NCBI GenBank assembly: GCA_001899085.1
Contig: MKVB01000001.1
Location: forward strand, 1,251,323 to 1,315,322
Direction: 5' to 3'
Length of the DNA: 64,000 nucleotides
From: Devosia sp. 66-14
Lineage (GTDB): Bacteria; Pseudomonadota; Alphaproteobacteria; Rhizobiales; Devosiaceae
This document shows, one piece after another, positions 32,685-42,277 of the stretch (its first letter is position 1; each line of letters opens with the position of its first letter). The notes under the pieces are model-generated. The model made no database searches, was not told where the DNA came from, and was given only the letters and a program-made list of their open reading frames with translations. The translations under genes were made by a program, and so were the position numbers.

Positions 32685-32744
32685 AGGGCGTTCGCACCAG
32701 TCCCTTCTTGATCCCGCACCGCGGGGCGCAAGCGGATGATGGTT

Positions 32745-33098
32745 CGGTGCGGGAAGAGCACCCCCCACCCTGTCCCTCCCCCGCAAGGGGGGAGGAGACC
32801 AGAACACAAGCGCCAGTGGGAGCGTCTCCCTCCCCCTGTGGGGAGCAGGGCAATCGCATATGGCTTTGTGCACCGTACTCTCGGTGGTCCTCCACCGTGA
32901 AACGGGGGAGGGGGACCGCCGAAGGCGGTGGAGGGGGCGGCGGGAAGCGCCGGTTTGTGTGGCCGCCCCCTCCACCAGCTTCGCTGGTCCCCCTCCCCCG
33001 CTATGCGGTGGAGGACCACCGAGAGGCCGGTGACTGTCCATATGCGATATCCCTGCCCTTGCGGGGAGGGACAACGGTGGGAGACTCTTCCCGCACCG
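32745..33098. repeat. Nested palindrome of 354 bp (family D)
   Basis: Five successive arm pairs are visible from outside in: CGGTGCGGGAAGAG (32745-32758/33085-33098); GTCCCTCCCCCGCAAGGG (32772-32789/33056-33072); TCGCATATGG (32854-32863/33038-33047); CTCTCGGTGGTCCTCCACCG (32878-32897/33006-33025, 20 bp perfect); CGGGGGAGGGGGACC (32903-32917/32986-33000). The outer and inner pairs have centres 30 bp apart, as expected if one palindrome was inserted into another. No gene is evident in the 582-bp gap that contains it. Confidence 0.8.
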
Positions 33099-33159
33099 GC
33101 CCTTCAACCTATGCCCCAAGCATGCGGGCGCCCTCCGATCACACTTTTCACTTTGCCCC

Positions 33160-33185
33160 GGAACCAATTGTGGCGAGGCCCCGTT
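33160..33185 (+). promoter_or_regulatory. EcfG-type stress promoter (GGAAC-N17-CGTT)
   Basis: GGAAC at 33160-33164 and CGTT at 33182-33185 with a 17-base spacer match the alphaproteobacterial EcfG consensus. It lies 81 bp upstream of the first of two small membrane-protein genes. Confidence 0.7.
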
Positions 33186-33266
33186 ACTAGGGTCAGACGC
33201 GCCAAACGAGGCGGCGTGTCTACCGGCCCTCCCTCCGGTAGCACCCATGAAAAAGGAATGAGAGCG

Positions 33267-33434
33267 ATGACCAGACTCGAGATCGCCAACCTGGAACATG
33301 CAGCCCGTTCGGCCGTCGTGTGGATCCCTGAAGGTTATGACGGGCGCACGCATTACGGCGCGGTACTGACGGCCATTGTCCCGGCTGTCGGCATTCTCGT
33401 CGTCGCGGCAACCCTCCTCCTGTCGATCATCTAG
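33267..33434 (+). CDS. Small single-span membrane protein
   Basis: The 55-residue protein MTRLEIANLEHAARSAVVWI... has a soluble N-terminal half and one C-terminal hydrophobic helix (ILVVAATLLLSII). AAGGAATGAGAG precedes the ATG. A four-codon reading frame (MKKE) ends just ahead of it and is probably fortuitous. An EcfG-type promoter upstream and a DUF3309 gene 11 bp downstream place it in a stress-induced pair. I recognise no family. Confidence 0.6.
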   Translation: MTRLEIANLEHAARSAVVWIPEGYDGRTHYGAVLTAIVPAVGILVVAATLLLSII

Positions 33435-33445
33435 GAGCATCCACC

Positions 33446-33604
33446 ATGACTTTGAGCACGATCATCATCGTTCTGCTGATCCTGCTGCTGATCGGCGCCA
33501 TACCGGCCTGGCCCTACTCCCGCTCCTGGGGAGCTTACCCCTCCGGTATTCTCGGCGTCGTGCTCGTCATCGTCATCATCCTCGTGTTGATGCGCGTGTT
33601 CTGA
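33446..33604 (+). CDS. DUF3309 family small membrane protein
   Basis: The 52-residue protein has two hydrophobic stretches around the motif AIPAWPYSRSWGAYPSG, which is characteristic of DUF3309 (PF11752). The family is small and of unknown function, and members often respond to stress in alpha- and betaproteobacteria. It is too short for ordinary gene-length cut-offs. AGGAG precedes the ATG, and a rho-independent terminator follows 46 bp after the stop. It is probably cotranscribed with the 55-residue protein gene from the EcfG-type promoter. Confidence 0.8.
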   Translation: MTLSTIIIVLLILLLIGAIPAWPYSRSWGAYPSGILGVVLVIVIILVLMRVF

Positions 33605-33649
33605 CGAGCCCTCCGCGAGCCAAGGTCGCCCCCCTTGCGGCTCGCCATC

Positions 33650-33688
33650 GCACCCCAGTTCGCCCCCGGACTGGGGTGCACTCTTTTT
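33650..33688 (+). terminator. Rho-independent terminator
   Basis: GCACCCCAGT (33650-33659) pairs with ACTGGGGTGC (33670-33679), followed by a CTCTTTTT run. It would end transcription of the DUF3309 pair. Confidence 0.8.
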
Positions 33689-33722
33689 GGCAAGAGCTGC
33701 ACGGATGACCCGGCAACCCGCC

Positions 33723-33747
33723 GGAACCCTTGGGCGCGCAGCGCGTT
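33723..33747 (+). promoter_or_regulatory. EcfG-type stress promoter (GGAAC-N16-CGTT)
   Basis: GGAAC at 33723-33727, 16-base spacer, CGTT at 33744-33747. It lies 29 bp upstream of the DUF883-like gene, so the leader would be about 20 bases. Confidence 0.75.
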
Positions 33748-33776
33748 GACACCGCATCACATGAGGAGCGACCACC

Positions 33777-34172
33777 ATGGCATCCACCACCGATATGGCC
33801 CCCAACCGCACCGCCGCCGCCAGCAAGGCCCCGGCCCGTCGCGCCGCCAACGGCCCGCGTCGCGCTGCGGCGCGCCAGAGCCAGAGCCGCGAGGACGATC
33901 TGTCCGCCCAGGTGCAGCAGCTGCAATCGGACCTGAAGTCGATCGCCGCAACGCTGGCGAACCTCGCCGAGGACAAGGTCAATGACGCTCAGAAAGTCGC
34001 CAAGCGCGAGGTCAAGAACCTCGCCAGCAGCGGCCAGAGCGCCATCGAAGACGTACAGGACGAATTCGGCCAGCTGGAAAAGCAGATCAAGGACACCATC
34101 CGCGAGAAGCCGCTGACCGCGGTCGCCGGCGCCATCGCGCTCGGTTTCGTGCTCGCGGTCGTTTCGAGGTAG
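33777..34172 (+). CDS. DUF883/ElaB-YqjD-like membrane-anchored protein
   Basis: The 131-residue protein has a basic, Ala-rich N-terminus, a long helix or coiled coil (DDLSAQVQQLQSDLKSIAAT to DEFGQLEKQIKDTIREKP) and one C-terminal membrane helix (AVAGAIALGFVLAVVSR). This is the layout of ElaB/YqjD/DUF883 proteins, tail-anchored inner-membrane proteins linked to stationary phase and ribosome binding in Escherichia coli. The EREKPLxAV-like junction just before the helix is typical. It is driven by an EcfG-type promoter and followed 4 bp later by a holin-like membrane-protein gene, a pairing resembling yqjD-yqjE. Confidence 0.8.
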   Translation: MASTTDMAPNRTAAASKAPARRAANGPRRAAARQSQSREDDLSAQVQQLQSDLKSIAATLANLAEDKVNDAQKVAKREVKNLASSGQSAIEDVQDEFGQLEKQIKDTIREKPLTAVAGAIALGFVLAVVSR

Positions 34173-34176
34173 TCCC

Positions 34177-34644
34177 ATGCACCTTCTCGCACTGGCCGCC
34201 TCGGTCCTGGGGATCGAGGTCGACGAGTTGCTTGAGCACGCCAAGAAGAACGCCATGGCCTGGTCGGCCGTGGCGCTCTTTGCGTTGATCGCCCTGGTCT
34301 TCGTGCTCGTGGCGCTCAATGCGTGGTTCACCCTGCTCTGGGGACCGATCGTCGCGCCGCTGCTCATCGCCGCCGGCGCGCTGCTGGTGGCGCTTGGCGT
34401 CTATGCCGCCATTGCGATCTCCGACGGCATCGCGAGGCGCCATGCCGCCGAACGGCGGAACTCGGCCGAAAAGACCGCCCTGGTGACCACCGCCGCGCTC
34501 ACCGCACTGCCGCTGGTGCTGAAATCGGACCTGATGAAGAAGGTCGGCATTCCCATCGGCGGCGCCCTCGCTGCCGCCTACCTGCTCGCCAAGCCGGGCA
34601 GTTCCCGATCCGGGCACCACAGCAACGGTCACGACCCCGACTGA
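34177..34644 (+). CDS. Phage holin-like / YqjE-like membrane protein
   Basis: The 155-residue protein has two strong membrane helices in its first half (MAWSAVALFALIALVFVLVA and LIAAGALLVALGVYAAIAIS). After a charged loop there are two weaker hydrophobic stretches and a Gly/Ser/His-rich tail. The position right after a DUF883-like gene matches YqjE or the Holin-X superfamily proteins often found there. It is cotranscribed with the DUF883 gene (4-bp gap) and so likely under the same stress promoter. Function is unknown; a lysis role is unlikely in the absence of other phage genes. Confidence 0.65.
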   Translation: MHLLALAASVLGIEVDELLEHAKKNAMAWSAVALFALIALVFVLVALNAWFTLLWGPIVAPLLIAAGALLVALGVYAAIAISDGIARRHAAERRNSAEKTALVTTAALTALPLVLKSDLMKKVGIPIGGALAAAYLLAKPGSSRSGHHSNGHDPD

Positions 34645-34664
34645 TCACTTCGCCACATTTCGCG

Positions 34665-34689
34665 GGAACCGCGACTTGAGCTCGGCGTT
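34665..34689 (+). promoter_or_regulatory. EcfG-type stress promoter (GGAAC-N16-CGTT)
   Basis: GGAAC at 34665-34669, 16-base spacer, CGTT at 34686-34689. It lies 71 bp ahead of the 77-residue protein gene and directs it separately from the preceding pair. Confidence 0.75.
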
Positions 34690-34760
34690 ATCTGGTGCAC
34701 CTGCAGTTGAAATAAGCAGCTGCAGTCAAGGCCAACGAAGCATTTCCAGGAGTGTGAGCT

Positions 34761-34994
34761 ATGACCCACATCAAGCGGAAGATCGTGACCATTCTGACCG
34801 ACGACCATATCGCAGAGGCTGACAAGATCACCATCCTGCGCCAGCTCGAGGCGGACTCGCTCTCCAAGGAGCGCAGCGCCACCGAGGGCATGATCTCGGT
34901 CGACGGCGACGACGGCGAAGATTTGAAGACCATCGAGAACGCCCTGCGCAAGCTGGGCCAGCAGCCGGTCGAAGCAGGCGCGTCGAGCCTCTGA
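34761..34994 (+). CDS. Small soluble protein of unknown function, stress-promoter driven
   Basis: The 77-residue protein MTHIKRKIVTILTDDHIAEA... is acidic and mostly helical, with no membrane segment or signal. CAGGAG is well placed before the ATG. It has its own EcfG-type promoter and its own rho-independent terminator, so it is a complete transcription unit within the stress island. I recognise no family. Confidence 0.7.
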   Translation: MTHIKRKIVTILTDDHIAEADKITILRQLEADSLSKERSATEGMISVDGDDGEDLKTIENALRKLGQQPVEAGASSL

Positions 34995-35018
34995 GGGCAA
35001 TAGTTTCGAGTAGATTGC

Positions 35019-35059
35019 TCACCCCGCCCGGGTCACCCGCGGCGGGGTGATTGCTTTTT
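35019..35059 (+). terminator. Rho-independent terminator
   Basis: TCACCCCGCC (35019-35028) pairs with GGCGGGGTGA (35041-35050), followed by TTGCTTTTT. It ends the transcript of the 77-residue protein gene. Confidence 0.85.
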
Positions 35060-35140
35060 GGGATGATAACGGCGCAACTGCGTCCCCGCGCCCGTCCCCG
35101 GGCTGCCTCGGTGTGGCTAGGCCTTGGACCCACCCCGGCT

Positions 35141-35218
35141 GTCATCCCTGCGAAAGCAGGGACCCAACTATCGACTAGTGCGGGCGGTGAAATGGGTCCC
35201 TGCTTTCGCAGGGATGAC
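35141..35218. repeat. 78-bp palindromic repeat, family A copy 3
   Basis: Arms match copy 1, with CCTGC-GAAA-GCAGG stems, around a different 26-base centre. It lies in the 318-bp gap between the terminator-bounded small gene and the convergent lipid kinase gene; nothing else is evident there. Confidence 0.85.
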
Positions 35219-35312
35219 ACCGAGTGTGTTCGGTTCAATGGTGAAACGACCTAGTTGCGGACTTTCGGCCCGAGCCTAACGGGCGAAGAGCGATGGGCCC
35301 CGCCCATGGAAC

Positions 35313-36254
35313 TCAAGCCGCCTCGATCTCAGGATCCTCGCGCTTGGGCGCGATCTCCACCGCCGGCAGCACCACCTTCAGGCCGCCGGCATGGATCCTC
35401 AGGTCGACCCGCTTTTCGAGCGGGATCAGTTCCCCGTCGATCACCGCCAGGGCCGAGGCCTTGCGGCGCGGGAAACTCAGGCTCACCTGCGCCACCTCGC
35501 GTTCCGAGACCAGCGGATGCGCCTTCCAGTTGCCGAAGGCCAATGACAGCGCCAGCCGCGCCAGCTCCGCCGGCGGCATGGGTTTGACCACATAGACCCC
35601 GAGCACGCCGCGATCGACCACCTCGGCATAGGGGACGTGCCCCTCCCCCAGCACATTGTTTGAAACCGCAATCGCCGTGGCCTTGCGCCGGTCGGTGCCC
35701 TGCCGGGTGCCGATCTCGGCATCGAACACCGGCGGCCGCGACAGCGCCAGCCCGACGGCCCTGAGGCTCGCCAGCATCTTGCCCCAGCGGCTGTGATAGG
35801 TGAGCCCGTTGCGGATGCGCACCAGCCGCGAATGGAGCCCCACCGAGAACTGGTGCACGAAGGGTCGGCCGTTGGCGGTGGCGATGTCGACCGCGCCGAT
35901 CTCGCCGCCGGCAATGGCTTCGAGCGCCGCCGGCAGCTGCAGCGGCACGCCCAGCGTGCGGGCGAACAGGTTCATCGTTCCGGCCGGCAGCACCGCCAGC
36001 GCCATCTGGTGGGCAAAGCAGATGCCGGCCGCCGCCGAAATGGTGCCGTCGCCGCCGCCGGCCAGCAGCACATCGGCAGCCGGATCGACCGCGGCGCGCT
36101 CGAGCTCCGCCGTCAGGTCGTTCCCGCTCACTGCCCGGCAGTCGAGCGTATGCCCGTGCCGCACGAAGATCGCTTCGGCCTCGGCCATGAAGCCCGGCAT
36201 GTCCATGGTCCGGAACGTGCCGCCATCCTTGTTGAACACGCCGATGAAATGCAT
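35313..36254 (-). CDS. Diacylglycerol kinase-family lipid kinase
   Basis: The 313-residue protein has the DAGK catalytic domain (PF00781) with the nucleotide-binding motif GGGDGT (about residues 66-71) and the motif AVLPAGTMNLFARTLGVPL (about 86-104). The C-terminal half is the beta-rich YegS/DagK accessory region. Such enzymes phosphorylate diacylglycerol, sphingosine-like or other lipids at the inner membrane. It ends convergent to the repeat-rich gap. An EcfG-type promoter lies 29 bp upstream of its ATG, just after the histidine kinase stop, so lipid turnover may be part of the stress response. Confidence 0.85.
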   Translation of the reverse strand: MHFIGVFNKDGGTFRTMDMPGFMAEAEAIFVRHGHTLDCRAVSGNDLTAELERAAVDPAADVLLAGGGDGTISAAAGICFAHQMALAVLPAGTMNLFARTLGVPLQLPAALEAIAGGEIGAVDIATANGRPFVHQFSVGLHSRLVRIRNGLTYHSRWGKMLASLRAVGLALSRPPVFDAEIGTRQGTDRRKATAIAVSNNVLGEGHVPYAEVVDRGVLGVYVVKPMPPAELARLALSLAFGNWKAHPLVSEREVAQVSLSFPRRKASALAVIDGELIPLEKRVDLRIHAGGLKVVLPAVEIAPKREDPEIEAA

Positions 36255-36282
36255 GCCGTTTCCCTCACCCCAACCCGATGGG

Positions 36283-36307
36283 AACGGCGCTGCGCGACGC
36301 CGGTTCC
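36283..36307 (-). promoter_or_regulatory. EcfG-type stress promoter of the lipid kinase
   Basis: On the minus strand GGAAC (36307-36303), 16-base spacer, CGTT (36286-36283). It lies in the 59 bp between the histidine kinase stop and the lipid kinase start, giving the lipid kinase its own stress promoter. Confidence 0.7.
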
Positions 36308-36313
36308 GCTCGC

Positions 36314-37711
36314 CTAGCCGGCTTCCGGCAGATCCAGCCGCGGCAACTGCACGCTGATCGAGGTGCCGCCGCCCGGGCGTTCGCGGTAACTCGGCTCGCC
36401 GCCGCCGAACTGCCGCGCCAGCTGTTTGACGATCACCGCGCCAAGCCCGTCCTGCCCGCCGCCGGTGAGGCCCTTGCCGTTATCCTCGACGGTCAGCAGC
36501 GTCACGCCGCCGGCCGGGCGCTCGAAGCGCACATAGATGATGCCGCCCTCGCCCTCGGCGAAGGCATGCTTGAGCGCGTTGGTCACCAGTTCGCTCACCA
36601 CGATGCCCAGCGTCGTCGCATCGCGCGCCGGGATGACCATCGCCTGCAGGTGCTTTTCGAACGTCACCTGCTTGCCCGACGGCACGGCTGCCGCGAGGTC
36701 GTCGATGACATCGGCGAGAAATTCCGCTGCATCGGTGGTTTCGAGATCGGCCCCGAGCCGCAGCCGCCGATGGGCCGAGGCGATGGCCTGCACCCGCAAT
36801 TGCGCCGCCTCGAGCGCGGTGCGCACCTCCTCGGACTGGGTGCGCGCCAGCTGCAGCCCCAGAAGCGAGGAGACGGTGGCCAGCGAATTGCCGATCCGGT
36901 GGTTGGTGTCCTGCAGCAGCGTCTCGAGCCTCGCCCGCTCGCGCTCGGCATGGCCGCGCGCCTCTTCGGCTTCGACGGTCCGGGCGCGCACATGCGCTTC
37001 CAGCTCCTCGTTCTGGCTGCGCAGCAGGCTCTGCTGCTCCGACAGCGCCGCCACCTTCCTCTGCGTGCGTGACAGCAGCGCATAGGCAAGGATCGCCGCC
37101 GCCCCCAGCGCCGCGAGGATCGTGACGATGGTCAGCTGCCGGTAGAGCTGCATGCGGCCGTTGCGGTCGATCAGCTTTTCGTCTTCTTCGCCGATCACTT
37201 CCTGCAGCCCGCTGCGGATCCGCTCCATCAGCTGCTGGCCGGTGTCGGAGCGCAACAGCGCCAGCGCTTCAGCGCTCTGACCCGACGACATGAGCTCGAT
37301 GGTGCGTGCCATCTCGGCCCGCTTGGAATCGAGATCGGGCACCAATGCGTCGATCCGGGCCTGCTGCGCCGGGTTGTCGCCGAGCAGCGCCAACAGGCTC
37401 TGGTAGGTCTGGCTCAGGTTGCCGATCGCCACGTTGTAAGGGGCGAGATAGGCCTCGTCGCGCGTGATCAGATAGCCGCGCTGCCCGGTTTCGGCATCGA
37501 CCACCGCCAGCATCAATTCGCGCGCCTGACGCCGGATTTCATAGGTCTTGGCAATGTCGGCGAGCTGGTTGTCGACGGTGCGGACCAGATAGAGCGACGC
37601 CGCCACCGCCACCAGCACCAGGGTCAGCGAGGCGAAGATGGCCACGCGCCGCACCATCCCGCGCCGCCGTGGCCGGGCGAATTCGGCAGATTGGGCGCTG
37701 ACGTCGAGCAT
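36314..37711 (-). CDS. CHASE3 sensor histidine kinase (HWE/HisKA_2 type)
   Basis: The 465-residue protein has a membrane helix at about 20-42, a periplasmic CHASE3 domain with the hallmark ETGQRGYLIT, a second helix (QLTIVTILAALGAAAILAYA) and a coiled coil. A HisKA_2/HWE-type dimerisation domain follows, with phospho-His in LLQDTNHRIGNSLATVSSLL, then a HATPase with ELVTNALKHAF and VEDNGKGL. The ATG at 37711 is favoured over 37816 by the GAGGAT site. Kinases of this type phosphorylate PhyR in alphaproteobacteria, and the gene lies 2.4 kb from phyR, so it is a good PhyK candidate. The stimulus is unknown. Confidence 0.87.
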   Translation of the reverse strand: MLDVSAQSAEFARPRRRGMVRRVAIFASLTLVLVAVAASLYLVRTVDNQLADIAKTYEIRRQARELMLAVVDAETGQRGYLITRDEAYLAPYNVAIGNLSQTYQSLLALLGDNPAQQARIDALVPDLDSKRAEMARTIELMSSGQSAEALALLRSDTGQQLMERIRSGLQEVIGEEDEKLIDRNGRMQLYRQLTIVTILAALGAAAILAYALLSRTQRKVAALSEQQSLLRSQNEELEAHVRARTVEAEEARGHAERERARLETLLQDTNHRIGNSLATVSSLLGLQLARTQSEEVRTALEAAQLRVQAIASAHRRLRLGADLETTDAAEFLADVIDDLAAAVPSGKQVTFEKHLQAMVIPARDATTLGIVVSELVTNALKHAFAEGEGGIIYVRFERPAGGVTLLTVEDNGKGLTGGGQDGLGAVIVKQLARQFGGGEPSYRERPGGGTSISVQLPRLDLPEAG

Positions 37712-37826
37712 CAGGATGCCATCCTCGTGCGGAAGCGGTGCGACGTGAGTCCGGTCGTGCCCCCCGGACCACCCATCGAGAGCACGATGATAGCTAGGCT
37801 GGCGGGGTGGCAACAATGCGGCTCGT

Positions 37827-38609
37827 TCATATCAGCGGGCGCCTGCCTTCCCCCAACCCGCTCCAGCCGGCGATCTCGGCCAGCGCATCGGCATCGAGCA
37901 CTTCGCAGGCCCGGTCATGCCAGCGGATCAGCTGCTTTGCGGCAAGCTTGCGCAGCGTCTTGTTGGTGTGGACGATCGACAGGCCCAGCGTGTCGGCGAC
38001 ATGCTGCTGGGTAATCGGGATCAGCTGCCGCGACCCCTTGACCTGCCCCACCTGCTGGGCCCGCTGGTAGAGGAAGGCGATCAGGTAGGCGGCGCGCTCC
38101 ATGGCGCTGCGCCGCCCGACGCTGAGCAGGTTTTCGTCCAGCATGCGCTCCTCGCGCGAGGCGAGCCAGGTGACGTCGAAGGCGAGGCCCGGGTGGTTCT
38201 CGAACAGTTTGGGCAGGTTGTCGCGCTGGAACACGCACAGCACCACCGGAGAAAGCGACTCCACCGAGTGCTCCATCTCGCCGATTACCGAGCCCTGCAA
38301 CCCCACGAGGTCGCCGGGCAGCAGGTAGTTGAGGATCTGGCGCCGCCCATCCTCCAGCGTCTTGAAGCGGAAGGCCCACCCCGACAGCAGGGTGAACAGC
38401 TGCGCGCTGTGCGATCCCTCGGCGAGGATCATCGAGGCCGGTTCACTCACCAGTTCGCCGCGCTTGAAACCGCTGACGAACTTCAGCTCTTCAGCCGTGA
38501 AATCGCGGAAATGCGCGTTGGCGCGCAGCGGGCAGGCTTCGCAGGGGATGCGTCGGACAGTCGAAGTGGAGGCCACGGTCGTACTCACGGCAGAATTCCC
38601 CCGCAGCAT
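37827..38609 (-). CDS. Crp/Fnr-family transcriptional regulator
   Basis: The 260-residue protein has a cyclic-nucleotide-binding-like beta barrel (about 40-160; GDLVGLQGSVIGEMEHSVES) and a C-terminal winged helix (about 170-245). The recognition region is PITQQHVADTLGLSIVHTNK. The N-terminal IPCEACPLR has two Cys, but the full four-Cys set of an oxygen-sensing Fnr cluster is not evident. It is 115 bp upstream of the histidine kinase on the same strand. This subgroup is frequent next to stress-response kinases in Hyphomicrobiales; the ligand and targets are unknown. A later GTG start (VSTTVAS) is possible. Confidence 0.85.
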   Translation of the reverse strand: MLRGNSAVSTTVASTSTVRRIPCEACPLRANAHFRDFTAEELKFVSGFKRGELVSEPASMILAEGSHSAQLFTLLSGWAFRFKTLEDGRRQILNYLLPGDLVGLQGSVIGEMEHSVESLSPVVLCVFQRDNLPKLFENHPGLAFDVTWLASREERMLDENLLSVGRRSAMERAAYLIAFLYQRAQQVGQVKGSRQLIPITQQHVADTLGLSIVHTNKTLRKLAAKQLIRWHDRACEVLDADALAEIAGWSGLGEGRRPLI

Positions 38610-38726
38610 GTCGCCGGGCTGGCCGCGCGCAACCGATAACTGGCCGCCCGATTGCCTGACGTCATGTCTTTGTTAAATGACCCCAGGGCCCGAACGCCCG
38701 ACGATGCCCCCCGTTTCCACAGCGTC

Positions 38727-39110
38727 ATGGACACAGCATCGATGCACGGCCTGCACATCCTCCTCGTCGAGGAAGAATATCTTATTGCTGCCGATATGGA
38801 GCAGACGCTCCGTGCTGCCGGGGCCGAAGACGTCACCATCGTCGGCGATATCGATACCGCCGCGACGTATGATTTCTCGGACGTGCAGCTCGCGGTGATC
38901 GAGGCCAAGTTCGGCAGCGCCAACGCCGTGGCGCTGAATGACGCGCTGCGCGCGGCCGGTGTGGCCGTGGTGGTGACCTCCGCCGACCACGCGGTCCAGG
39001 CACTGTTCACCGGTGCAACTCCCCTCCAGAAGCCTTTCGACTCCACTGCCCTGCTCGCCGCCTGCGAAGCCGCCCGTCGCCGCGACCCGTCATTGGCCGA
39101 ACCCGCCTAG
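38727..39110 (+). CDS. Receiver-domain-only protein with Glu at the phosphoacceptor site
   Basis: The 127-residue protein is a stand-alone receiver fold: HILLVEEEYLIAADMEQTL (acidic pair EE), LAVIEAKFG, VVVTSADHA (the conserved Ser/Thr) and PLQKPFD (the conserved Lys). In the second motif the phosphorylatable Asp is Glu (about residue 59), the substitution used in the laboratory to mimic phosphorylation. It could thus be a permanently 'on' or decoy receiver. The start is uncertain (TTG 38652, ATG 38664, 38727 or 38742); no clear ribosome site helps. It is divergent from the Crp gene and convergent with ecfG. Confidence 0.7.
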   Translation: MDTASMHGLHILLVEEEYLIAADMEQTLRAAGAEDVTIVGDIDTAATYDFSDVQLAVIEAKFGSANAVALNDALRAAGVAVVVTSADHAVQALFTGATPLQKPFDSTALLAACEAARRRDPSLAEPA

Positions 39111-39191
39111 CTCGCCCGGCGGATCGGGCTGCGCCTGCACAACGCGCCGGGCTCGGCTCGAGGCCCGGCCAGCGGCTCTCATCGTATGGAA

Positions 39192-39221
39192 GCGGGGATG
39201 ACACGGCCCGGTCATCCCCGC
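39192..39221. terminator. Hairpin between convergent receiver and ecfG genes
   Basis: GCGGGGATGAC pairs with GTCATCCCCGC around an 8-base loop. There is no clear T-run, so it may be a rho-independent-like or transcript-end-protecting hairpin serving both convergent transcripts. Confidence 0.5.
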
Positions 39222-39227
39222 AGCAGT

Positions 39228-39782
39228 TCAGGTAAAGCGCGGCAGCGTCGTCACCTGCGCCGACACCGAATCCGGCCCGTAATCGCCCTCGCCCGTCACC
39301 TTGAGCACTTCCTGCAGCTTGCTGCGGGCGCGGCTGACGCGGCTCTTCATGGTGCCGACCGCGCATTTGCAGATCTCGGCCGCCTCTTCGTAGGAAAAGC
39401 CGGAGGCGCCGATCAGGATGATCGCTTCGCGCTGGTCGTCGGGCAGTTTGTCGAGCGCCGCCTTGAAATCGCTGAGGTCCATGATCCCGTATTGCGCCGG
39501 GTGCACGGCCATGCGCTCGGTGAAGGCGCCGTCGGTGTCCTGCACCTCACGGCCGCGCTTGCGCATCTGGCTGTAGAACTCATTGCGAAGGATGGTGAAC
39601 AGCCACGCCTTCATGTTGGTGCCCATCTCGAAGCTTTCCTGCTTCGCCCAGGCCTTCATGACGGTGTCCTGTACCAGGTCGTCCGCCTTGTCGTGGCGCC
39701 CTGAAAGCGACACCGCGAACGCCCGGAGGCTGGGCAAAGTGGACAGCAGCTCGCGCTTGAAGCTCGGCTTTTCGGCTTCCAT
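39228..39782 (-). CDS. ecfG: General stress response sigma factor EcfG
   Basis: The 184-residue ECF sigma factor has region 2 (LRAFAVSLSGRHDKADDLVQ, then MKAWLFTILRNEFYSQMRKR) and region 4 (LPDDQREAIILIGASGFSYE and VGTMKSRVSRARSKLQEVL). These match the EcfG group that directs the alphaproteobacterial general stress response. Its start lies 3 bp after the nepR stop, so the pair is translationally coupled. EcfG recognises GGAAC-N16/17-CGTT promoters, several of which flank neighbouring genes here. NepR holds it inactive until phosphorylated PhyR binds NepR. Confidence 0.93.
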   Translation of the reverse strand: MEAEKPSFKRELLSTLPSLRAFAVSLSGRHDKADDLVQDTVMKAWAKQESFEMGTNMKAWLFTILRNEFYSQMRKRGREVQDTDGAFTERMAVHPAQYGIMDLSDFKAALDKLPDDQREAIILIGASGFSYEEAAEICKCAVGTMKSRVSRARSKLQEVLKVTGEGDYGPDSVSAQVTTLPRFT

Positions 39783-39785
39783 GGG

Positions 39786-39998
39786 CTACTCGCCCTTCGC
39801 GGTTTTGGTCTGCTTGCTCTGCTGCTCGACAGTGTCGAGCTGTTCCAGCAGGTCGATCAGCTTGGAGGGAATTTCTTCGCTTTGTACGGCTCCGTAGAGC
39901 GCCCGCAGCTTATTTCCGATGTCGGAGTTAGGCCCCAGTCCATCGTCGCGGCGGCGCCGCACCATACCCAAATCATTCATTGTTGTTTTGTCTCGCAT
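39786..39998 (-). CDS. nepR: Anti-sigma factor NepR
   Basis: The 70-residue protein begins MRDKTTMNDLGMV and contains the NepR signature IGNKLRALYGAVQSEEIPSK followed by LIDLLEQLD. NepR is a small helical protein that binds EcfG under calm conditions and is taken over by PhyR~P under stress. The ATG at 39998, preceded by GAAGGG, is preferred over 40034. It is the first gene of nepR-ecfG and is divergent from phyR. Confidence 0.93.
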   Translation of the reverse strand: MRDKTTMNDLGMVRRRRDDGLGPNSDIGNKLRALYGAVQSEEIPSKLIDLLEQLDTVEQQSKQTKTAKGE

Positions 39999-40054
39999 AA
40001 ACCCTTCGCCCCACAGCAGGATCTGACGCCCCATACTCCAGCCGCGGGAAGCTA

Positions 40055-40079
40055 AATGCGCCGCGACAAAAAAAGTTCC
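40055..40079 (-). promoter_or_regulatory. Near-consensus EcfG promoter of nepR-ecfG
   Basis: On the minus strand GGAAC (40079-40075), a 16-base spacer that includes a T7 run, and CATT (40058-40055), one base off CGTT. The leader to nepR would be about 50 bases. It implies positive autoregulation, weaker than at phyR. Confidence 0.55.
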
Positions 40080-40088
40080 AGATATTCG

Positions 40089-40113
40089 GGAACCAAGTTT
40101 TCAGCATGTCGTT
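40089..40113 (+). promoter_or_regulatory. EcfG-type stress promoter of phyR
   Basis: GGAAC at 40089-40093, 16-base spacer, CGTT at 40110-40113, 45 bp upstream of the phyR start. The elements for the two divergent promoters lie only about 10 bp apart. Confidence 0.8.
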
Positions 40114-40158
40114 CTCATCCATGGTAAGCTCTAAAAGCGTCACGGGAGTAGAATTTCA

Positions 40159-40953
40159 ATGTCGCTATCCACGCGGATCGCACCGCATCTTCCCTATCTG
40201 CGTCGTTTCTCGCGGGCGGTCACCGGCTCGCAAACCTCCGGTGATGCCTATGTCGCGGCAACGCTCGAAGCGCTGATCGCCGATCTCTCCATCTTCCCGG
40301 AAGCGAGCAACGACCGCATCGCCCTCTACCGGCTCTATTCGGCGCTGTTCTCCAGTTCGGCGATCCGAGTTCCCGAGCCGACCTCGACCTTCCCCTGGGA
40401 GTCGCGGGCGGCGGCCAACCTCGCCAATCTCGCGCCACGCCCCCGGCAGGCCTTCCTGCTGGTTGCCGTGGAGGGCTTCAGCCACGGCGAAGCCGCGGAA
40501 ATCCTCGATGTCTCGTCCGACGAGTTCGCCGACCTCCTGTCGCAGGCCTCCGCCGAGATCTCGCGCCAGGTGGCGACCGATATCCTGATCATCGAAGATG
40601 AACCGCTGATCGCCATGGATATCGAGCAGATGGTCGAGGGCCTCGGCCATCGCGTTGTCGGCATCGCCCGCACCCACAAGGAAGCAGTGGCGCTCTACCA
40701 CAAGACCCAGCCGCGCATGATCCTCGCCGATATCCAGCTGGCCGACGGCTCATCCGGCATCGATGCGGTCAACGATATCCTGCACGCCCATCCGATCCCG
40801 GTGATCTTCATCACCGCGTTCCCCGAGCGGCTGCTGACCGGCGAACGTCCGGAACCGACCTTCCTCGTCACCAAGCCGTTCAACCCGGACATGGTGCGCG
40901 CGCTGATCAGCCAGGCGCTGTTCTTCGACGAAGGCTCGCGCGCCGCGGCCTGA
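40159..40953 (+). CDS. phyR: Stress response regulator PhyR
   Basis: The 264-residue protein has an N-terminal sigma-like domain (about 1-130; [19 protein letters not shown] and [20 protein letters not shown]) that mimics EcfG, joined to a receiver domain (about 140-258). The receiver has [13 protein letters not shown], phosphoacceptor Asp191 in [13 protein letters not shown], Thr in FITAF and Lys in LVTKPFNPD. On phosphorylation the sigma-like part binds NepR and frees EcfG. The gene is divergent from nepR-ecfG with 160 bp between the starts. A rho-independent terminator follows. Confidence 0.95.
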
Positions 40954-40979
40954 CCCTCCGGACGCCCCTCCGGATCTTG

Positions 40980-41006
40980 AGCCGGGCTCTGCCCGGCTCT
41001 TTTTTG
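40980..41006 (+). terminator. Rho-independent terminator of phyR
   Basis: AGCCGGGC (40980-40987), TCT loop, GCCCGGCT (40991-40998), then CTTTTTTG. It lies 27 bp after the phyR stop. Confidence 0.85.
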
Positions 41007-41060
41007 TTTGTTGTGGGGCTGGTGGAGTTCACCTCCGTCAAAGGCAGAGAGCCCTCCACG

Positions 41061-41085
41061 GGAACCCAAACTCCGCCCGGTCGTT
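41061..41085 (+). promoter_or_regulatory. EcfG-type stress promoter (GGAAC-N16-CGTT)
   Basis: GGAAC at 41061-41065, 16-base spacer, CGTT at 41082-41085. It is 31 bp upstream of the DUF1328 start. Confidence 0.75.
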
Positions 41086-41116
41086 ACTCCCCCGACAGAT
41101 CAATGGAGTAACAAGA

Positions 41117-41281
41117 ATGTTGCAATACGCACTGCTCTTTCTGGTCATCGCCATCGTCGCGGGCGTGCTGGGATTTGGCGGTATTGCCGGCGCTGCCTCT
41201 GGCATCGCCCAGCTTCTGTTCTTCCTGTTTCTGGCCTTCCTGGTCGTCTCGCTGATCATCGGCCTGTTCCGGCGCGCCTGA
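41117..41281 (+). CDS. DUF1328 family small membrane protein
   Basis: The 54-residue protein [20 protein letters not shown] has two membrane helices separated by [12 protein letters not shown], the signature of DUF1328 (PF07043; YtjA of Escherichia coli is a member). Members are short, abundant and induced by stress in many alphaproteobacteria. A perfect EcfG-type promoter precedes it. GGAG lies at the expected distance before the ATG. The gene is too short for usual cut-offs but well supported. Confidence 0.85.
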
Positions 41282-41333
41282 CGCGCCAGAGTTTACTCGA
41301 ACCGTCCCAGCCGGGTCCGCGGTTCGAGGTGGC

Positions 41334-41363
41334 AACGGCCCCATCCGCGTGGATGGGGCCGTT
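41334..41363 (+). terminator. Hairpin after DUF1328
   Basis: AACGGCCCCATCC pairs with GGATGGGGCCGTT around a GCGT loop, 52 bp after the stop. The T-run is weak (AGCTTGT). A smaller hairpin CTCGAACCG/CGGTTCGAG lies just before it. Confidence 0.6.
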
Positions 41364-41495
41364 AGCTTGTCCGATGCGGCCGGGCCGACAGGGGCGCCAA
41401 CTGGTCCGCGCCGGATTTTCCTGCCATCGCTGTCGAATCCCGCCTGTCTGGTTCGATTAACTGAGAACCCCAGGCAGTCCCCGAAGGAGCAAGCC

Positions 41496-41861
41496 ATGAC
41501 CCAGTATCTCGTCGCCATCCACCACCCCGACGATTTCGAGCCGTTCTCCGAGGACGAGGCGACCCACCGCGACATCAGCGCGCTCAACATCGCCATGCAG
41601 GCCGAGCGCATCGTGGTGTTCGTGGGCGGGCTCGACCGCGCCACCGAAGCCAAGGCGGTGCGGCGCAAGCCCGGCGGCGACCTGCTCGTCACCGACGGAC
41701 CCTATATCGAGACCAAGGAGCATATCGGCGGCTTCTGGGTGCTCGAACTCCCCAGCATGGAGGCCGCGCTCGAGTGGGGCAAACGCGCCGCCATCGCTTG
41801 CCGCGCTCCGGTGGAAGTGCGGGCGTTCAACTCGCTGGAGAACCGCGACGCAGTGCACTGA
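41496..41861 (+). CDS. YCII/DGPF-domain protein
   Basis: The 121-residue protein has the DGPF motif as TDGPYIETKEHIGGFWVLEL, the mark of the DGPF/YCII family (PF03795). The ferredoxin-like fold carries a possible His/Asp catalytic pair, but most members have no known reaction. Many occur beside ECF sigma factors as possible signal-related proteins; this one stands alone here, with the sigma factor 1.7 kb away. GAAGGAG precedes the ATG at 41496. A terminator hairpin follows 90 bp after the stop. Confidence 0.85.
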   Translation: MTQYLVAIHHPDDFEPFSEDEATHRDISALNIAMQAERIVVFVGGLDRATEAKAVRRKPGGDLLVTDGPYIETKEHIGGFWVLELPSMEAALEWGKRAAIACRAPVEVRAFNSLENRDAVH

Positions 41862-41951
41862 GGGACTGGCACCGGCCGCGCCGCAGCGCCCCCCTCGCCC
41901 TCTGGGGAGAGGGGACGCGCTTTGCACCCGCAGCACCTGCCCGGAATCAAA

Positions 41952-41971
41952 AGCCCCGCCGAAGCGGGGCT
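41952..41971. terminator. Hairpin between YCII and CsbD genes
   Basis: AGCCCCGC pairs with GCGGGGCT around a CGAA tetraloop, preceded by AAAA and followed by CAGTCTT. It lies between convergent genes and could end transcripts from both sides. Confidence 0.65.
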
Positions 41972-41994
41972 CAGTCTTCTGGCAATCAGGGCGC

Positions 41995-42195
41995 CTAGTG
42001 CAGGCGATTGACCCAGTCGTCGACTTCGCGCTCGGCCACTTCCTGGGCCTTGCCGTAGCGTTCCTGGATCTTGCCGCTGAGCTGTTTGCGGTTGCCCTTG
42101 ATGATGTCGAGGTCATTGTCGGTCAGCTTGCCCCACTGGGTCTGGACCTTGCCCTTGAACTGCTCCCAGTTGCCTTCAACCTGGTTCCAATTCAT
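41995..42195 (-). CDS. CsbD-family stress protein
   Basis: The 66-residue protein MNWNQVEGNWEQFKGKVQTQ... shows the CsbD pattern (PF05532): WNQVEGNWEQFKGKVQ, GKLTDNDLDIIKGNR and a Gln/Lys-rich helical end. CsbD proteins are small, soluble, abundant and controlled by general stress sigma factors in several phyla; their job is unknown. An EcfG-type promoter lies 57 bp upstream and AAAAGGAG just before the start. Confidence 0.92.
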   Translation of the reverse strand: MNWNQVEGNWEQFKGKVQTQWGKLTDNDLDIIKGNRKQLSGKIQERYGKAQEVAEREVDDWVNRLH

Positions 42196-42252
42196 CTGCA
42201 ATCTCCTTTTCTGCTGAAATGAGCCGCCGTGGCCGGTGGCCCGTGTTGAACT

Positions 42253-42277
42253 AACGCGTCCTGTCCGCGTGAGTTCC
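42253..42277 (-). promoter_or_regulatory. EcfG-type stress promoter of the CsbD gene
   Basis: On the minus strand GGAAC (42277-42273), 16-base spacer, CGTT (42256-42253). This marks the right-hand end of the stress island. Confidence 0.75.

Follow-up and report, generated by a model that had tools for sequence, protein, structure and literature searches.

The window analysed here, i.e., the whole stretch of 64,000 nucleotides from contig MKVB01000001.1 of Devosia sp. 66-14 (Devosiaceae), contains at positions 33160-42277 an island in which the core regulators of the alphaproteobacterial general stress response (GSR) are encoded among small genes preceded by promoter-like sites for the extracytoplasmic function (ECF) sigma factor EcfG (Table 1). 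These regulators had been named from the sequence alone in a preliminary description, and all three were confirmed by family models. The anti-anti-sigma factor PhyR carries PhyR_sigma2, PhyR_sigma-like, and Response_reg domains, all over their cut-offs, and had one strong match in the genome plus a second, ECF-like place barely over the cut-off. The anti-sigma factor NepR had a single genome match, beside ecfG, and EcfG itself is placed in the ECF15 subgroup by context, not by a subgroup-specific model. The nepR-ecfG and phyR units are divergent, with an EcfG-type site ahead of each (CATT for nepR, CGTT for phyR). The island also encodes a CHASE3-HisKA_2 histidine kinase, whose translation contains an HRIGN box in agreement with the published HRXXN kinase motif (PMC8103513). 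Against the PhyK model NF051872, this kinase reached 91.8 bits over its kinase part only (cut-off 750); it is the candidate PhyR kinase of the locus.

Scanning of the window for GGAAC-N16/17-CGTT, the same EcfG promoter consensus as in the accessible parts of earlier publications (PMC3892343, PMC7083833), returned seven exact matches (hereafter strict sites). All were located where the preliminary description had put them and inside 9,118 bp around phyR-nepR-ecfG, and no further strict site was found in the rest of the 64-kb window. An eighth site ahead of nepR-ecfG, at 40079 on the minus strand, reads GGAAC-N16-CATT and was indeed one base from consensus. The short distances to gene starts that had been noted were measured as 81, 29, 71, 28, 45, 31, and 57 bp (site end to start of the open reading frame, in site order). 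When genes were called with a home-made dicodon model (255 training genes) and not with a standard gene finder, six of the seven gaps were identical, and a later start of the DUF883-like gene gave a gap of 47 bp. One-mismatch matches within 15.5 kb, the weak site ahead of crp among them, numbered nine, at eight places. No strict site was found directly upstream of the crp, histidine kinase, receiver, or YCII genes of the window. In 100 dinucleotide shuffles of the window, strict sites occurred 0.69 times on average and three times at most, compared with the seven observed.

Table 1. Features of the island in window coordinates, with the evidence for each (aa, amino acids; ORF, open reading frame; bit scores refer to the family models named)
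Feature	Position	Strand	Evidence
EcfG-type promoter (N17), p55/DUF3309 pair	33160..33185	+	exact match
p55, 55 aa, C-terminal half hydrophobic by eye	33267..33434	+	ORF, coding score
DUF3309 small protein	33446..33604	+	PF11752, 76.1 bits, over cut-off
EcfG-type promoter, DUF883-like/holin-like pair	33723..33747	+	exact match
DUF883-like protein, 131 aa	33777..34172	+	DUF883_C, 20.3 bits, cut-off 27
155-aa protein, weakly Phage_holin_3_6-like	34177..34644	+	19.6 bits, cut-off 28.4
EcfG-type promoter, p77	34665..34689	+	exact match
p77, 77 aa	34761..34994	+	ORF, coding score
Lipid kinase (DAGK_cat)	35313..36254	-	PF00781, 67.9 bits
EcfG-type promoter, lipid kinase	36283..36307	-	exact match
CHASE3-HisKA_2 histidine kinase	36314..37711, start uncertain, up to 37816	-	CHASE3 129.7 bits, HisKA_2 65.7 bits
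Crp/Fnr-family regulator	37827..38609, start 38609 or 38576	-	cNMP_binding and HTH_Crp_2
EcfG-like site GGAAA-N17-CGTT ahead of crp, weak	38693..38718	-	one mismatch; may be chance
Receiver-like protein	38742..39110	+	Response_reg, 17 bits, below cut-off 30.2
ecfG, ECF sigma factor	39228..39782	-	Sigma70_r2 and r4_2 (PF04542, PF08281); NCBIfam PRK12516, 353 bits, cut-off 321
nepR, anti-sigma factor	39786..40034	-	PF18557, 47.1 bits, cut-off 25.7
nepR-ecfG promoter, CATT -10 box	40055..40079	-	GGAAC-N16-CATT
phyR promoter, back to back with nepR promoter	40089..40113	+	exact match
phyR, sigma-like and receiver anti-anti-sigma factor	40159..40953	+	PF22029, PF22233, PF00072; PRK09191, 390.9 bits, cut-off 240
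EcfG-type promoter, DUF1328	41061..41085	+	exact match
DUF1328 small protein	41117..41281	+	PF07043, 52.1 bits, over cut-off
CsbD-family protein	41995..42195	-	PF05532, 71.1 bits, over cut-off
EcfG-type promoter, csbD	42253..42277	-	exact match

Among the products listed earlier as targets, the DUF3309, DUF1328, and CsbD proteins and the lipid kinase held up in Pfam, while the DUF883 assignment had to be reduced to DUF883-like, as the 131-aa protein misses both Pfam DUF883 cut-offs (20.3 vs 27 and 14.8 vs 25.4 bits). The holin-like gene begins 4 bp behind the DUF883-like gene. The lipid kinase met the DAGK_cat model and reached 173 bits with the MamU model NF040993 (cut-off 400 not reached). 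Neither p55 nor p77 had a Pfam family above cut-off or an NCBIfam family. The crp and histidine kinase genes are perhaps read on one transcript.

The density of strict sites was then set against that of the whole genome (5.72 Mb, 13 contigs), with the same motif read backward as control. In total, 77 strict and 66 backward-control sites were found. Seven of the 77 lie in the 9,118-bp island, for which the density outside it predicts 0.11; the second-ranking stretch of equal length has three. The density in the island is thus far above, and not equal to, that of the rest of the genome, in line with the clustering of regulators and targets proposed earlier. A site was called promoter-like if it was intergenic and a gene on its own strand started no more than 200 bp downstream. 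This applied to 35 of the 77 strict sites and to 2 of the 31 control sites that were classified (those of the 66 with fetched loci); of the other strict sites, 30 lie inside coding sequence and 12 are intergenic, some without a gene close behind.

With 77 strict sites and 66 in the backward control, the genome-wide surplus is only 11, and seven of the 77 are in the island; the island could thus be nearly the whole regulon and EcfG a local regulator like many ECF factors. This was rejected on the dispersed promoter-like sites and is very improbable: with the island excluded, 28 of 70 strict sites were promoter-like, i.e., intergenic and close ahead of starts, compared with 2 of 31 in the control (p about 7e-4), and typical stress genes follow some of them. 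The Pfam scan covered the downstream proteins of 20 of these 28 sites, 14 of which had a match at an E-value of 0.001 or better (12 over the curated cut-off). The families behind outside sites include ferritin/Dps-like, Ku, OsmC, MgtC, PRC-barrel, and glyoxalase-like proteins as well as DUF2934, an AI-2E-type transporter, and a second lipid kinase of the DAGK_cat family. Hence, with 28 dispersed promoter-like sites, some at stress genes, the island appears as a hub and not as the whole regulon.

Further single observations concern the sites outside the island. The second DAGK_cat lipid kinase of the genome (L112:925-1901) has a strict site 64 bp ahead, and a strict site is also found 16 bp ahead of a gene (L123:438-1034) for a 184-aa protein that had no Pfam match and that we take to be heme oxygenase-like. 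A second cluster of three strict sites (C1:1406343-1413215) includes one 20 bp ahead of a gene, one overlapping a start by two bases, and one without a near gene.

Conservation of the sites was assessed in the best 80 of 566 PhyR-related loci from a scan of genome contigs, a selection that over-represents close kin and includes some short contigs. The Devosiaceae set (n = 33) consists of 29 Devosia loci, one locus of Arsenicitalea, whose family was verified, and the loci L033, L047, and L078, which were assigned by PhyR identity and gene order; the other set (n = 47) includes Mesorhizobium, Rhizobium, Ensifer, Brucella, and more. The 80 loci contained 433 strict sites, whereas 40 permuted motifs gave 32.7 on average. 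No locus was without a strict site, the number per locus ranged from 1 to 12, and 73 loci had three or more; therefore, such packing is not restricted to the genome studied here, and several Mesorhizobium loci are even richer than the window (10 or 11 strict sites). A class-wide sample of 20 NepR loci from 18 genomes yielded 55 sites vs 6.8, with two loci lacking a site and eleven having one or two only, so not all loci of the class are densely packed.

In the Devosiaceae, 126 of 144 sites are followed within 200 bp by a homologue of a window gene. Per-gene upstream scans skipped stretches of up to 120 bases, and denominators are the loci in which the gene was found and scanned. On this basis, strict sites precede DUF1328 in 24/24, p55 in 23/25, phyR in 29/33, DUF883-like in 24/29, p77 in 6/8, csbD in 3/4, and crp in 10/24 Devosiaceae loci; none was found in this family ahead of the ecfG, kinase, receiver, ABC, DUF3309, holin-like, ATP-grasp, or transglutaminase genes. 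Outside the family, the counts were 46/47 for phyR, 23/23 for DUF1328, 14/19 for the lipid kinase, 12/17 for crp, 8/34 for nepR, 1/1 for DUF3309, 1/47 for ecfG, and 0/12 each for kinase and receiver. With permuted motifs, strict matches were obtained in at most 0.23 loci per gene (0.03 for p55 in Devosiaceae). Taking both sets together, a strict EcfG site precedes crp in 22 of 41 relatives, while crp of the window has only the one-mismatch site. ABC-transporter matches near phyR outside Devosiaceae (26-40% identity) were treated as unrelated paralogues.

These counts also bear on an origin of the sites by chance or base composition, as could be suspected from the shortness of the motif and its frequent occurrence in coding sequence (30 of 77 genome matches). 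The probability of this is practically negligible, and it was rejected on the window shuffles with their maximum of three, the genome density, and the permuted motifs in relatives; in addition, the sites are conserved ahead of the same genes in Devosiaceae.

The two back-to-back promoters of nepR and phyR in the window (40055-40113) differ in one -10 base, and this asymmetry is almost fixed in the family. For nepR-ecfG, no strict site but a one-mismatch site in 29 of 33 loci was found in Devosiaceae; in a direct count of the box, it is CATT in 29 of the 33, CGTT in none, and neither form was present in four. For phyR, it is CGTT in 29, CATT in one (L039), and neither in three. Of the 47 other loci, 24 have only CGTT at the nepR promoter, 19 only CATT, two both forms, and two neither, and phyR has CGTT in 46; this count scans the gap beside phyR and thus covers loci without a tblastn NepR match. 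Within the genome itself, CATT sites are no more frequent overall than their backward control (34 vs 37). Nevertheless, 11 of the 30 CATT sites that could be classified (of 34, those with fetched loci; nepR included) were intergenic and near a start, compared with 2 of 31 controls of the CGTT motif (p about 0.005, or about 0.009 with nepR left out). A CATT-type site (L226, C1:549425-549450) lies 37 bp ahead of the second CsbD gene in the genome. In Sphingopyxis, changing CGTT to CATT lowered in vitro transcription and the reverse change raised it, according to the accessible part of PMC7083833. By analogy, CATT would be weaker than CGTT in this bacterium as well, and feedback would raise PhyR more than NepR-EcfG. 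The literature searched, in which subscription papers were mostly out of reach, contained no description of the fixed CATT or of the packing.

In this Devosia-type bacterium, the locus is thus very probably a canonical phyR/nepR-ecfG locus that has been extended to an island with co-regulated small genes and is subject to positive feedback. PhyR would be phosphorylated under stress by a HisKA_2/HWE kinase, for which the CHASE3 kinase of the island is the probable candidate, with others perhaps contributing, and phosphorylated PhyR would draw NepR off EcfG. EcfG-RNA polymerase would then fire from the GGAAC-N16/17-CGTT promoters, which in the island precede the units phyR, p55-DUF3309, DUF883-like with holin-like, p77, lipid kinase, DUF1328, and csbD. 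The nepR-ecfG unit would be driven via CATT, probably more weakly, closing the feedback loop, and roughly 28 or more promoters elsewhere would form the dispersed part of the regulon. The products of the targets probably adjust the envelope and the resting state. We infer the use of the sites by EcfG, the action of the kinase on PhyR, and the functions of all island targets from sequence.

Several points weigh against this reading. The backward motif, too, matches the genome 66 times, so a single site has little weight, and the strict sites inside coding sequence (30/77) are presumably noise. Related loci and sequences are not independent observations. In the loci outside Devosiaceae, homologues of window genes follow only 108 of the 289 sites; most sites of other families therefore serve genes that are absent from the window island or not identified. 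Ahead of the lipid kinase, no more than 7 of 29 Devosiaceae loci have a strict site, and the DUF883-like gene has one in 4 of 28 loci outside the family. Finally, an ECF paralogue with 41% identity to EcfG is encoded on contig C2 and might read the same promoters. That this or another sigma factor drives some or all of the promoters is improbable: paralogous EcfG factors do share promoters in Sphingopyxis and Methylobacterium, as far as the accessible text goes (PMC7083833, PMC4814048), but the genome has only one NepR match, the one beside ecfG, and one strong PhyR match.

In the enlarged GSR locus proposed above, clustering may allow the genes to be inherited together and feedback to act fast and locally, or the order may simply have been inherited. 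It is quite possible, if somewhat short of an even chance, that the clustering is without selective meaning, i.e., that the targets stood near phyR in the ancestor and were kept there by vertical inheritance. Consistent with this, Alpha-E/ATP-grasp and transglutaminase genes, which have no EcfG site, are retained next to the island in 26 of the 33 loci of Devosiaceae (short contigs are among the remaining seven), and p55, p77, and CsbD were found in none of the 47 loci outside the family. However, the Alpha-E/ATP-grasp and transglutaminase genes were likewise found in none of these 47 loci, whereas DUF1328, the lipid kinase, and Crp occur near phyR in 23, 19, and 17 of them, often reordered or in another orientation, and are preceded by strict sites in 23, 14, and 12. 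A DUF1328, DUF3309, or CsbD homologue was also present in the fetched stretch of 10 of the 20 NepR loci of the class-wide sample. Because DUF1328, lipid kinase, and Crp genes recur near phyR with sites outside Devosiaceae and the ATP-grasp and transglutaminase neighbours do not, the data lean, in an informal comparison, towards some selection for clustering.

In the general arrangement described for this system, phyR and nepR-ecfG are divergent units, both are under feedback, and a kinase gene is close by (accessible parts of PMC8103513 and PMC4814048). As in the alphaproteobacterial EcfG (ECF15) locus, PhyR, NepR, and EcfG are encoded in divergent units with sites of the same consensus ahead of both, and a HisKA_2/HWE kinase with HRXXN is nearby. 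Unlike the canonical locus, the island adds six EcfG-site units, extending about 7 kb to one side and 2 kb to the other, and the CATT/CGTT asymmetry is almost fixed in Devosiaceae. The parts are known and the arrangement is common to relatives; the tight packing is the notable point. For Rhizobium etli, an EcfG-dependent non-coding RNA with mapped start, ReC64, is described as adjoining the ecfG1-phyR-tcrY region (PMC3892343, in part accessible). There, too, an extra EcfG target lies beside the regulators, but it is one neighbouring target according to that text, compared with six units here. The EcfG targets reported for Sphingopyxis granuli TFA in the accessible part of PMC7083833 include csbD, osmC, ku-ligD, and a sphingosine kinase. 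The kinds of targets are thus shared and CATT -10 boxes are present and were tested there, whereas csbD and the kinase lie far from ecfG in that genome, judging by locus tags.

A further likeness exists to small enterobacterial proteins under RpoS and concerns the CsbD and DUF1328 families; the sigma factor is unrelated. YqjD of Escherichia coli is a DUF883-type protein. The accessible texts place the CsbD (YjbJ) and DUF1328 (YtjA) proteins of Salmonella under RpoS (PMC5437024) and give yqjD as RpoS-dependent in E. coli and as occurring only in its close relatives (PMC8778775); the comparison with YqjD is limited by the below-cut-off DUF883 match of the island protein. As far as these sources go, the control of CsbD and DUF1328 by RpoS in Salmonella hints at outputs common to unrelated general-stress sigma factors. 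DUF1328, the lipid kinase, and Crp, joined in Devosiaceae by the DUF883-like protein and p55, are candidate core outputs, most of them without an assigned function. The island hence provides a short list of probable direct EcfG targets in Devosia that can be put to the test; a literature search combining Devosia with "general stress response" returned no paper about the system by title.

Between crp and ecfG, the receiver-like protein has Glu at the phosphoacceptor position, with the acidic stretch and the receiver lysine kept. In 24 aligned sequences (leaving out the four misread sequences L036, L040, L089, and L094), this column holds Glu in 11, Asp in 12, and Asn in one. The Glu carriers are the window and ten other Devosiaceae, i.e., 11 of the 14 aligned sequences of the family, and the Asp carriers are two Devosiaceae and ten sequences from other families; Asn is found in one Devosiaceae sequence. 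No locus among the relatives had a strict EcfG site ahead of the receiver gene, and no description of a Glu-bearing receiver was met in the literature searched. A more far-reaching account would combine these features: selection would keep switch and effectors as one tuned module across Hyphomicrobiales, with order reshuffled and targets near phyR, CATT would hold nepR-ecfG weak in Devosiaceae so that feedback favours PhyR, and the Glu receiver would mimic permanent phosphorylation. As a whole, we regard this as rather unlikely.

Two sets of inverted repeats were observed at the island. Nested repeats at 32734-33109, directly ahead of the first promoter, resemble a palindromic repeat element; their main arms (32871-32941 and 32962-33032) are 71 nt long and 86% complementary, with further arms outside. 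Another inverted repeat, located between p77 and the lipid kinase gene (35131-35228), has 36-nt arms that are 89% complementary and separated by 26 nt.

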